NCBI GenBank assembly: GCA_017302655.1
Contig: JAFLDE010000025.1
Span: 1 to 43,153, forward strand
Direction of reading: 5' to 3'
Source of the DNA: Burkholderiales bacterium
Lineage (GTDB): Bacteria; Pseudomonadota; Gammaproteobacteria; Burkholderiales; Burkholderiaceae_C
Length of the DNA stretch: 43,153 nt
Shown here: in pieces, positions 26,295 to 31,556 of the stretch
Layout: the number at the start of each line of letters is the position of its first letter
How positions within the stretch are numbered: position 1 is the first letter of the stretch
Translations under genes and position numbers: made by a program
Notes under the pieces: model-generated
Database searches by the model: none
Told to the model about the DNA's origin: nothing
Seen by the model: only the letters and a program-made list of their open reading frames with translations

Positions 26295-27338
26295 TTAAAG
26301 GCTCTGACCGACTGCCATCAAATACTGCTGGTCGTTTGACGGGCCAACCAATCCAAGGGTGCCCGGGGGCGTCATGGCGCCGCCAGTGGCCAAAGCCTGC
26401 ACCAAACGCTGAGCCATCGTGTCGATGCCATTCATCGTCGGCACATTGAGGGGCACTCCGCCCCCAAGCGAAAGAGTTTCGGCTTGGTTTGCTTCAGTAG
26501 CCGTAGATTCGCTCTCGATTCCCTGATCCTCGAGTCCAGGATTCACTGCACTGTTGGCTGTCGGGTTATCCGGCAGTGGCTTGGGATCTTGCGGGCGGCC
26601 GGGTCCAATCTCGGTGCCTTGGCCAATTACGTCGCCATAGGCGTTGTATTCAACCCACTGCCAAACAGTTTCCGTTTCAGACTCACTCACGAGCGTCATT
26701 TCCTTATTGGCTACTGTCCAGTAGTCAGGCGGAGTGTCGCCCTGTGGTGGGGGGTTGTGGTCGCCGTTTCCATCGCCTTCATCGCCGCCACCATCATTGT
26801 CCCCGCCACCACTTCCGCCTTCGCCACCATTGCCGGAACCCGGCAGTGGGTTGGCGTTCCTGATTGATTCGAGTTGGGATTGTGTGAGAATGGTATTTCC
26901 AGATCCGGGCGTTAGCATGTTGCTAAGGTGTGGTTCGGTGAGTCCCATAACGCTCAGTAGCGTGGTCGCTACAGAGTTGCTGTTGATCGTGGGCGAGAAA
27001 ATGTTGAAGCCCCATGGGGGATACGGGAGGTTCATGCTATTAATGATACTCATGGCATCTTGCGCTCGTTTCCACAGAGCCATAGCTTGAGCCTCAGTGC
27101 CGCTGAAAACCACCTGCTGCGGTGAGGTAGGGGTGTAAAAGTATCGTCCCGTGTCTTCGTAGACCTTTAGCATATCCGTGTTGCTTGTGCCGACTGGTAT
27201 GCGGGCGCCTTGAGCGTTTGTCGCCAGGCCGTTCATTTCCTTCAGCACGGTTCCATCGCTACTTGTTAGTACGATGTAATTGTGGCCGGCGGTGCCGCCA
27301 ACGATTGGTAGCTGGGCAAATGTGATTGAATAAGTCAT
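26295..27338 (-). CDS. Putative type I secretion cargo, acidic and cysteine-free
   Basis: A 347-residue protein with no signal peptide, no Cys, few Lys/Arg and many Asp/Glu: traits of type I secretion substrates. The N-terminal domain (1-145) opens MTYSITFAQLPIVGGTAGHN and has GHNY (His19), MNGLAT (35-40), YFYTP and NSNSVATTLL (from 119). A His followed later by an N-x-N-S block recalls permuted papain-like (NlpC/LRAT/YiiX) enzymes, with Ser where Cys would be; this is only a resemblance. A Gly/Asp-rich stretch (about 166-194, GGGDNDGGGDEGDGNG) could bind calcium but has no ordered RTX nonapeptides. The C-terminal region is a candidate secretion signal. It overlaps the upstream lipoprotein gene (ATGA) and follows hlyD/hlyB-type genes on the same strand. 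G+C is visibly lower than in neighbours. Confidence 0.7.
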   Translation of the reverse strand: MTYSITFAQLPIVGGTAGHNYIVLTSSDGTVLKEMNGLATNAQGARIPVGTSNTDMLKVYEDTGRYFYTPTSPQQVVFSGTEAQAMALWKRAQDAMSIINSMNLPYPPWGFNIFSPTINSNSVATTLLSVMGLTEPHLSNMLTPGSGNTILTQSQLESIRNANPLPGSGNGGEGGSGGGDNDGGGDEGDGNGDHNPPPQGDTPPDYWTVANKEMTLVSESETETVWQWVEYNAYGDVIGQGTEIGPGRPQDPKPLPDNPTANSAVNPGLEDQGIESESTATEANQAETLSLGGGVPLNVPTMNGIDTMAQRLVQALATGGAMTPPGTLGLVGPSNDQQYLMAVGQSL

Positions 27339-27802
27339 TGCTCTCTGATTCTTTCCTTCTTGGAAACGCCAATTGATTTTGTGGAGTGGCCCGCGATGGC
27401 AGAAACGCGAACTATGTATTGGCGTTCTTTGATTCCATTGGCCGGTGTCGGGCCTACAGGGATAGTTGTGATGGTTGAGGTATGTGAGCACTGAGTGGAT
27501 GGCTCCGGTTCACAGCTGAATCCCGCAGTTTCAAGCTCGCTCCTTTCGATCGCATTGGATCCCGGTTTCATTCGTTGATGCATCGCGAGTTGCACCGCTG
27601 TAGCAATGCCTCTGTCAACGCTCATCCAGTTGTCTTGAATAGTTTTAGATATTACGCCTTCGTTTGGTTGGTGGAATTGAACACTTATGCCGGGAAATGG
27701 TTGGCAGGCGCAGAGTAACAGGAGAAGAGTTGGCCTGATGCGAGAAATGAGTATGGTGGCGAGCTTCGAGGGTCTGATAAATTCCAAATATATATTGATC
27801 AT
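27335..27802 (-). CDS. Small putative lipoprotein of the secretion island
   Basis: A 155-residue protein I do not recognise. A positively charged n-region (SKLATILISRIRP) precedes a short hydrophobic run LLLLL and a possible lipobox LCAC at about residues 30-33. The mature part has GVISKTIQDNWMSVDRGIAT, two more Cys (FSCEPEPSTQCS) and a basic tail. Its stop overlaps the start of the putative cargo gene by ATGA, so the two are made together. Possible roles are an accessory or protective partner of the cargo; this is inference. The start at 27802 is the only ATG before the hydrophobic run. G+C is low, as in the cargo gene, which suggests recent acquisition. Confidence 0.6.
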   Translation of the reverse strand: MINIYLEFIRPSKLATILISRIRPTLLLLLCACQPFPGISVQFHQPNEGVISKTIQDNWMSVDRGIATAVQLAMHQRMKPGSNAIERSELETAGFSCEPEPSTQCSHTSTITTIPVGPTPANGIKERQYIVRVSAIAGHSTKSIGVSKKERIREQ

Positions 27803-29352: not shown

Positions 29353-31556
29353 GCCGAACTCCCTTCATCCAGGCCATGGCTCTGCACCCGCCACAGATGG
29401 GCATACACCCCTTGCGGCTTGGCCAGCAGCTCCTCGTGGCTGCCCACTTCGACGATCTGGCCCTTGTCCATGGCGATGATGCGGTGCGCATGGCGCACGG
29501 CGCTCAGACGGTGGGCAATGATGAAGACGGTGCGGCCCTGGCAGATCTGCCGCATATTGCGCTGCACGATGGCCTCGCTCTCGTAGTCCAGCGCGCTGGT
29601 GGCCTCGTCAAAAATCAGGATGCGCGGGTTGGCGAACAAGGCGCGGGCGATGGCGATGCGCTGGCGCTGGCCGCCGCTCAGGGCGCTGCCTTGTTCGCCC
29701 ACCACGGTGTTGTAGCCCTCGGTCAGCACGCCGATGAACTCGTGGGCCCCGGCCATCTTGGCGGCCTGGATGACGGCCTCCAGCGGCGCGGCGGGGTCGG
29801 CAATGGCGATGTTCTCGCGCACCGAGCGGTTGAAGAGCATGTTCTCCTGCAGCACCACGCCGACTTGGCGGCGCAGCTGGGCGGCGTCGATGAGGGCGAT
29901 GTCGTGGCCATCCACCCGGATGTGGCCGCTCTCGGGCACATAGAGGCGCTGGATGAGCTTGGTCAGCGTGCTCTTGCCCGAACCCGAGCGACCGACAATG
30001 CCGATGACCTCGCCGGGCTGCACATCGAGGCTCACGCCGTGCAGCACCGGGGCGGCGTCGGGGCGGTAGCGGAAGCTGACGTTCTCCAGCGTGACGCGGC
30101 CTTGCACGCGCGGCAGCGGGCTGCTGCTCTGGTTCGGCAGCTCGCTGCGGGTGTTGAGGATGTCCCCGAGCCGCGCCATGGCGATGCCGGTCTGCTGGAA
30201 GTCCGTCCACATCTGCGCGATGCGCATGATGGGCTGCGCCACGCGGCCGGCGAACATGTTGAAGGCGACGAACATGCCCACCGTGAGTTGGCCTTCCATC
30301 ACCAGGTGCGCGCCGAACCACAGGGTGGCGGCGTTGACGACCTTGCCGATGAGGTTGATGCCCTCGTGCCCATAGCTGGCCAGGGTGCTGGTGCGAAAAC
30401 TCGCCGTGACGTAGGCGGCGAGCTGCTGATCCCAGCGGCGCGCCATCTGCGGCTCCAAAGCCGAGGCCTTGACGGTCTGGATGCCGGTCACGGTCTCCAC
30501 CAGCAGGCTCTGGTTCTCGGCGCCGCGGGCGAACTTCTCGTCCAGCCGGGCGCGCAGGATGGGTACCAGCGCCAGGCTGATGAGCGCGTACAGCGGCAGC
30601 GCCGCCAGCACGATGAGGGTGAGCGTGACGCTGTAGGTGAGCATCACGGCGATGAAGACCACCGAGAAGAGCAGGTCCAGCACCAGGGTGAGCGCGTTGC
30701 CGGTGAGGAACTGGCGGATGTTCTCCAGCTCCCGTACGCGAGCGACCGAGTCGCCCACACGGCGCGCCTGGAAGTAGGCCAGCGGCAGCGCCAGCAGGTG
30801 GCGGAACAGCTTGGAGCCCAGCTCCACGTCGATGCGGCTGGTGGTGTGGCTGAAGACGTAGGTGCGCAGGATGGAGAGCAAGGATTCGAACAGCACCACG
30901 ACGACGAGGCCGAAGACGAGCACGTCCAGCGTGCTCATGCCCCGGTGCACCAGCACCTTGTCCATCACGACCTGGAAGAACAGCGGCGAGACGAGGGCAA
31001 AGATCTGCAGGAAGAGGGAAACGAGCAGGACTTCGCCGAGCAGCTTGCGGTGCTTGACCAGGGACGGGATGAACCAGGAGAAGTCGAACTTGCGCAGCTC
31101 GCCGGCGAGCGTGGCGCGGGAGCTGACGAGGATCAGCTCGCCCGTCCACTGTGCGGCGAAGACATCCAGCGGCTCGATGGTGGGGCGGGCCTGGCCTGTC
31201 GCCGGGTCGAGGAAGAGGACGCGCTGGCCATCGCACTGGGCCAGCACCACCAGGCGGCCGTCCTTCAAGCGGGCCAGGGCGGGCAGCGGCGCCAGGGTGA
31301 GGCGATCGACCGTGCTTTGCGTGCGCTTGGCCTTGAGGCCGATGTGCTGCGCGGCGCGCAGCAGGTCTTGCGGGCTCAGGGGCTGCGAAGCGGTGAGGCC
31401 CAGCGCGTGGGCCAGGGCTTCGGGTTCGGCGGCGATGTGGTGCAGGCGGGCCAGCACGGCCAGGGCGGTCAGCTCACTGAACCCCTTGCCGCCGGCTGGC
31501 GCCTCGGGTGCGTCACCCTGCGCGAGCGAAATCGTTGCCGTGCTGGCTGTCGTCAT
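29349..31556 (-). CDS. HlyB-type type I secretion ABC transporter with inactive C39-like domain
   Basis: A 735-residue exporter. Residues 1-150 form a C39-peptidase-like domain with no catalytic Cys: the first helix reads SELTALAVLARLHHIA where bacteriocin exporters have the nucleophile. Such domains (CLD) bind unfolded RTX-type cargo rather than cut leaders. The membrane domain spans about 165-450 with six segments. The ATPase domain has Walker A GRSGSGKST, signature LSGGQRQR, Walker B ILIFDEATSALD and H-loop IIAHRLS. It exports proteins in one step together with the HlyD-like adaptor and an outer membrane TolC. A C9 tract lies about 115 bp upstream. It heads the cassette HlyB > HlyD > lipoprotein > putative cargo. 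Confidence 0.94.
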   Translation of the reverse strand: MTTASTATISLAQGDAPEAPAGGKGFSELTALAVLARLHHIAAEPEALAHALGLTASQPLSPQDLLRAAQHIGLKAKRTQSTVDRLTLAPLPALARLKDGRLVVLAQCDGQRVLFLDPATGQARPTIEPLDVFAAQWTGELILVSSRATLAGELRKFDFSWFIPSLVKHRKLLGEVLLVSLFLQIFALVSPLFFQVVMDKVLVHRGMSTLDVLVFGLVVVVLFESLLSILRTYVFSHTTSRIDVELGSKLFRHLLALPLAYFQARRVGDSVARVRELENIRQFLTGNALTLVLDLLFSVVFIAVMLTYSVTLTLIVLAALPLYALISLALVPILRARLDEKFARGAENQSLLVETVTGIQTVKASALEPQMARRWDQQLAAYVTASFRTSTLASYGHEGINLIGKVVNAATLWFGAHLVMEGQLTVGMFVAFNMFAGRVAQPIMRIAQMWTDFQQTGIAMARLGDILNTRSELPNQSSSPLPRVQGRVTLENVSFRYRPDAAPVLHGVSLDVQPGEVIGIVGRSGSGKSTLTKLIQRLYVPESGHIRVDGHDIALIDAAQLRRQVGVVLQENMLFNRSVRENIAIADPAAPLEAVIQAAKMAGAHEFIGVLTEGYNTVVGEQGSALSGGQRQRIAIARALFANPRILIFDEATSALDYESEAIVQRNMRQICQGRTVFIIAHRLSAVRHAHRIIAMDKGQIVEVGSHEELLAKPQGVYAHLWRVQSHGLDEGSSA

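Follow-up and report, generated by a model that had tools for sequence, protein, structure and literature searches.

Closest described systems

Type I secretion is linked mostly to host-directed RTX toxins, and descriptions of it as an antibacterial device with interchangeable effector-immunity cassettes seem to be rare (among the top-listed open-access literature, nothing closer was found than Cdz of Caulobacter and a suggestion made for FrpC/FrpD of Neisseria meningitidis). Here we analyse a 43,153-nucleotide stretch from a Burkholderiales bacterium (contig JAFLDE010000025.1, assembly GCA_017302655.1; hereafter the window) that carries a HlyB/HlyD exporter, a small lipoprotein and a 347-residue cargo protein. 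We consider it fairly probable that the last two are an exported effector and its lipoprotein immunity protein, a pair taken up as cargo by the exporter.

In the available text of PMC5380434, Cdz resembles such an arrangement by using a type I exporter for contact-dependent killing together with an immunity protein, and differs from it by its small glycine-zipper bacteriocins and inner-membrane immunity protein. FrpC/FrpD likewise pairs a protein exported by a type I system with a lipoprotein that can bind it tightly, and the authors of PMC6759196 (as far as its available sections go) propose that it may be an antibacterial effector-immunity pair; FrpC is, however, a large RTX protein, and a search of PDB sequences with the lipoprotein profile returned chance-like rows only, with no FrpD chain among the 14 rows up to E 10. 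The same sections offer Smlt3024/Smlt3025, effector and immunity protein of the X-type IV secretion system (X-T4SS), as a precedent established by experiment in a different secretion system: the effector head also occurs as the N-terminal domain of RTX proteins, and an immunity partner counters periplasmic toxicity, although delivery is by T4SS and the heads are likened here by description only.

The nearest counterparts of the N-terminal domain of the cargo (the head) belong to the type VI secretion system (T6SS). TseH (VCA0285), a permuted NlpC/P60 protein delivered by T6SS, is described in the available text with a Cys nucleophile (a Cys mutant serving as control) where the head has Ser, and the two have no sequence-level match. 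According to the available text of PMC12994826, one of two phospholipase assays detected activity of TseH, and the related Tox-Act1 of the Salmonella T6SS is a phospholipase. Tox-Act1 shares with the head the superfamily and the circular permutation, and its periplasmic action and membrane-associated immunity protein are counted here as a likeness to the pair; unlike the head it needs both His and Cys and travels by T6SS, and the likeness is drawn from description only. DeSI-1/PPPDE (Peptidase C97, PDB 2wp7) differs in being a desumoylating Cys peptidase, the cargo having no Pfam match. As regards partners, Imm65 was the sole lipoprotein among the immunity proteins in the available part of a 2012 survey (PMC3482391).

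Taken one by one, the class of fold, the immunity partners and killing by type I systems are already known. A sequence-only reading of the window had called the cargo undescribed-looking, which holds for the family libraries scanned and fails for the principle, given the precedents FrpC/FrpD, Smlt3024/Smlt3025, TseH and Tox-Act1. Neither a Ser branch nor an exchange of lipoprotein-effector pairs on HlyB/HlyD was found among the top-listed open-access papers, and the serine-nucleophile variant may be undescribed for the permuted NlpC/P60 toxin class as presented in the available text of PMC12994826.

The locus and the cargo head

The features on which the analysis turns are the following.

29349..31556, minus strand: hlyB, type I ABC exporter with a C39-like domain (TIGR01846 and PF03412)
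27913..29352, minus strand: hlyD, periplasmic adaptor (TIGR01843, 356 bits)
27335..27802, minus strand: small lipoprotein gene, 155 residues, putative immunity protein (lipobox LLCAC by eye; held-out profile; G-x-x-C...C motif)
26295..27338, minus strand: cargo/effector gene, 347 residues (open reading frame, composition)
26856..27338, minus strand: head of the cargo (residues 1-161), modelled as a permuted papain-like fold (AlphaFold2 and VIA-align)
27282..27284, minus strand: codon of His19 within GHNY; the residue opens strand 2 and is the putative catalytic base (alignments and model)
26979..26981, minus strand: codon of Ser120 within N-S-N-S; the residue is the putative nucleophile and begins helix 120-130 at its N-terminal end (head alignment census and model)
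26739..26843, minus strand: acidic linker rich in Gly and Asp, spanning about residues 166-200 and not of RTX type (sequence)
26388..26405, minus strand: LVQALA motif, 36 residues from the C-terminal end, candidate signal for type I export (motif comparison)

The sequence-only reading had placed these four genes correctly in coordinates, order and strand, as judged from the list of open reading frames (ORFs), and its description of an HlyB-type exporter with a Cys-less C39-like domain, an HlyD adaptor, and a small lipoprotein overlapping by ATGA with an acidic, Cys-free cargo devoid of ordered RTX repeats was borne out. HlyB scores 1024 bits against TIGR01846 (cut-off 725.55), and its residues 29-148 form the C39-like domain (45.8 bits). 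The catalytic Cys of peptidase C39 sits in the N-terminal segment, where HlyB has none (the only Cys of residues 1-160 is Cys108); the domain is degenerate and lacks the catalytic residue. HlyD also passes its family cut-off. The G+C content at third codon positions (GC3) falls from 92% in hlyB and 86% in hlyD to 50% in the lipoprotein gene and 59.5% in the cargo gene.

The cargo has a pI of 4.08 (35 D+E against 11 K+R), contains no Cys, and shows neither a GGxGxD match to the RTX nonapeptide GGxGxDxUx nor a PF00353 match. No Pfam or NCBIfam family rose above cut-off for it, no convincing family was found for cargo or lipoprotein in Pfam, NCBIfam, PHROGs and PADLOC, and no papain-like Pfam family matched the cargo up to E 1 (the presence in that library of DUF6695, the TseH family, being unconfirmed). 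The head had no match in PDB sequences, and a search of 249 genomes with PF05903 gave two matches, both under cut-off.

The AlphaFold2 model of residues 1-161 (predicted local distance difference test 89.0, predicted template modelling score 0.87) places the strands first and the nucleophile helix last, as in permuted papain-like folds of the NlpC/P60 superfamily, and its top structural match in VIA-align is the T6SS effector TseH. By this model the head resembles a circularly permuted papain-like domain in which His19 and Ser120 would replace the His/Cys pair, which gives substance to the likeness, with Ser in place of Cys, that the sequence-only reading had noticed. The superfamily's catalytic pair is present in its His only, Ser standing at the nucleophile position in all 12 heads compared.

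This uniform replacement also speaks for a pseudoenzyme, a Ser-bearing permuted papain fold that binds a periplasmic or host target without catalysis, and the permuted NlpC/P60 clades in the available text of PMC12994826 do retain both His and Cys. His and N-S-N, however, persist in heads only 22-31% identical to that of the window, which suggests a kept active site. Serine is, moreover, a common hydrolase nucleophile. We regard the pseudoenzyme as rather doubtful; it would in any case be compatible with an effector-immunity pair.

Relatives and co-inheritance of the pair

Profiles built without the window recovered its cargo by the head (E 2e-42) and its lipoprotein (E 1e-8) among 1238 ORFs, thus placing both relationships beyond chance. 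The lipoprotein family has a conserved G-x-x-C...C motif; its Massilia member was still recovered at 7e-6 when left out together with that of the window, and outside the family the held-out profiles had no other match below E 2 in the same ORFs. The structure model of the lipoprotein was too poor in quality for fold comparison.

Whole-genome searches with the head gave 2/150 genomes in the family (one linker-only match discarded), 3/399 in the order, 3/398 in the phylum (one match with internal stops discarded) and 2/250 in the family with the G096 head as query, all including the window's own genome, and 3/46 in the genus of G463, which does not include it. Scans of genome contigs yielded four loci, one of them rejected (the others being Neisseria iguanae and two Bradyrhizobium), and scans of viral contigs three contigs, the single-sequence scans of the latter finding nothing. 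A search with the cargo sequence returned one plasmid record (Massilia), relatives as queries adding a second, weak place on that plasmid; against phage records the cargo had no match, and queries with relatives brought no further record. Three candidates were rejected as head relatives: G066 (matching in the acidic linker only), G711 (stops inside) and L029 of Muribaculaceae (30 residues only).

With apparent duplicates merged, ten head loci remain: the window, a Massilia forsythiae plasmid, three of the Neisseria genus, four of Bradyrhizobium or similar, and G096. In nine of them a homologous lipoprotein gene lies directly upstream of the head. The tenth, G096, has a different signal-peptide-like protein in this position, together with exporter genes recognised by eye, and of all the heads its own scores weakest (E 0.002 or 0.03 with G096 held out of the profile; 7e-4 and 8.7e-5 in other searches). 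The C-terminus of the 822-residue G096 cargo (L013:7476-9944) looks Hint/intein-like by eye, with no Pfam support.

The sequence-only reading had treated the exporter as the defining part of the set, and held that a pair occurring widely away from exporter genes would speak against it. This is largely what was found: in the 8 to 18 kb read around each of the other eight paired loci there was no HlyB/HlyD match. Since eight of nine pairs are without the exporter nearby, the head-lipoprotein pair is the unit, and the exporter is one of several vehicles.

Different cargos on closely related exporters

Three of the five other genomes of the genus hold, at four loci, an HlyB 86-89% identical to that of the window (E 1e-150 or better) with an HlyD 72-77% identical, and no ORF at these sister loci matches the window cargo or lipoprotein. 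The sister cargos are a 3439-residue protein that combines RTX repeats with a lipase-like head bearing GYSLGG (Pfam below cut-off), a 3829-residue RTX protein, a 1405-residue RTX protein apparently cut short, and a 552-residue protein without Pfam match (L041:13104-15456) that adjoins signal-peptide proteins and bears HEYGHH, presumably a metallopeptidase-like motif. It is as if sister species loaded the same exporter with different proteins, much as one weapon might take interchangeable warheads.

Next to the sister cargos lie small proteins in which a signal peptide or a lipobox is recognisable by eye, except at L042, where a 140-residue protein with neither feature comes before the cargo and a lipoprotein-like gene after it. 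After its exporter locus, G149 carries an array of six lipoprotein-like genes and five cargo ORFs, several of them short. The GC3 step recurs at L041 (87 and 86 versus 50-61), and is smaller for the cargo at L040 and L042 (74 and 73). L041 adjoins dpp-like genes 80-85% identical to those of the window, but on their opposite side.

Two side observations concern these loci. The layout of L049:454-16001 together with L042:7740-18503 (an exporter, then repeated lipoprotein-like genes with full and short cargo ORFs) resembles a polymorphic toxin locus. At three sister loci (L040:11782-13068, L042:12144-13532 and L043:5334-6695) a glycosyltransferase-like gene (Pfam support sought on L040 only) separates hlyD from the cargo genes; the window lacks it.

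A common C-terminal motif

Of seven cargos that belong to close exporters, six have the motif [LVIM][LVI]xA[ML]A at 35-47 residues from the C-terminus: those of three sister loci out of four, one more from the G149 array, whose short cargo ORFs were not scored separately, and two beside 60-64% identical HlyB or HlyD of other genera. The exception is the short cargo of L042. In the window cargo the motif reads LVQALA and lies 36 residues from the end. It was found in 10 of 822 ORFs overall, seven of which are these cargos, in 114 of 20,000 shuffles of the window tail, and in none of eight other RTX proteins (five beside distant HlyB/HlyD, three with none in the stretch read). The pattern was derived from four of these tails and widened once, admitting L083, the narrower form giving 5/7. 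Profiles of the tails reached the window cargo at E 0.37 and 4.5, short of significance as proof of secretion. Because the window cargo and six of the seven close-exporter cargos have the motif in common, we reason that the cargo may be exported by way of this tail.

Other vehicles for heads and lipoproteins

Carriers of the pair comprise the type I locus, a plasmid, contigs with SU10-like portal and capsid genes, and chromosomes beside genes that we take to be pntA/pntB-like. On the Bradyrhizobium-like contigs the pair adjoins an SU10-like portal ORF whose Pfam match begins at position 172, and at two loci (L034:2195-8812, L023:4699-10695) an island of roughly 4 kb with the pair in it seems to interrupt the portal gene, whose N-terminal part, judged by eye, would lie on the far side. 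At two loci the GLLG[ML]IQ tail at the C-terminus of the head protein is also carried by a second protein of the island. L034 also has an Ivy-family inhibitor (41.7 bits) just upstream, beside an ORF that is transglycosylase-like by eye and without Pfam match. A 92-residue ORF of L034 (L034:2995-3273), which the head profile detects at E 1e-6, probably represents an incomplete further copy of the head.

In the Neisseria genus three kinds of head (NSNS, NSNT and lipase-like), each behind a lipoprotein, have one C-terminal tail in common (one pair by BLAST, the others by eye); the 158-residue head protein of L017 has no tail. Effector-like proteins with differing heads and a common tail, each with a lipoprotein, stand beside the pntA/pntB-like genes at L104:3414-8755 and L103:2642-5428. 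Considering that tails are shared within both the island and the Neisseria-genus loci, the heads come with tails specific to each vehicle, a pattern seen in polymorphic toxins.

Three Neisseria-genus genomes have additional lipoproteins that belong to the family of the window lipoprotein. Those of G909 and G912 had been taken for orphans, a reading weakened by a related NSNT head at both loci, overlooked by the first profile and preceded immediately by a different kind of lipoprotein; no head was found in G926 by the search of the G463-genus genomes. Four weaker lipoprotein matches in another genus were seen as short stretches only. A T4SS or T6SS common to all pairs was rejected: a search of seven genomes for VirD4 (PF02534) and VipB (PF05943) showed no machine present in every one, and G000, G906 and G692 have neither.

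In its gene logic the window also resembles a FrpC/FrpD-like arrangement, in which the cargo would be a secreted binding or adhesin-like protein, the lipoprotein its surface dock, and toxicity would play no part. The pairs without exporter nearby, the extra family lipoproteins in arrays, the single tail on different heads and the toxin-like fold make this unlikely, and the proposal cited above would make FrpC/FrpD itself an effector-immunity pair. Less probable still, to the point of being hard to credit, is an effector directed at eukaryotic hosts with a lipoprotein in another role, such as an escort. Type I systems do often export host-directed toxins; a type I substrate would, however, bypass the periplasm, where an escort is unexpected, and the lipoprotein is retained in plasmid, provirus-like and array contexts, its extra copies fitting immunity better.

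Proposed mechanism

The comparative data are best read as a toxin-like head with a protective lipoprotein, one of the options that the sequence-only reading had raised. We favour an effector-immunity pair because lipoprotein and head are conserved together at nearly all loci on varying carriers, as is usual for such cassettes; because cargos differ on close exporters and GC3 differs between exporter genes and pair; because of the G149 array and the Neisseria-genus arrays with extra lipoproteins; and because TseH is the top fold match and the related Tox-Act1 a phospholipase. We infer that a lipoprotein-cargo pair was acquired as cargo by the type I exporter, that the cargo would leave the cell via its C-terminal tail, and that the head would act on a neighbouring cell's envelope, where the most plausible role for it is that of a hydrolase or acyltransferase with lipids or lipid-linked groups as substrate. 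Its partner lipoprotein would remain in the envelope of the producer, which it probably protects by neutralising the head. More tentatively, the HlyB/HlyD exporters of the genus might form a polymorphic-weapon platform with exchangeable effector-lipoprotein pairs on one tail, the pair in the window being a serine-nucleophile permuted NlpC/P60 toxin that attacks lipids.

The idea of exchange is directly testable, as the genus offers close exporters with different cargos. If true, a branch of permuted papain-like toxins that has Ser throughout would extend the known chemistry of effectors that attack the envelope, and the finding bears on whether FrpC/FrpD is a weapon.

Elsewhere in the window, positions 31747-37074 hold three adjacent minus-strand ORFs that appear, from their motif, to resemble GGDEF proteins.

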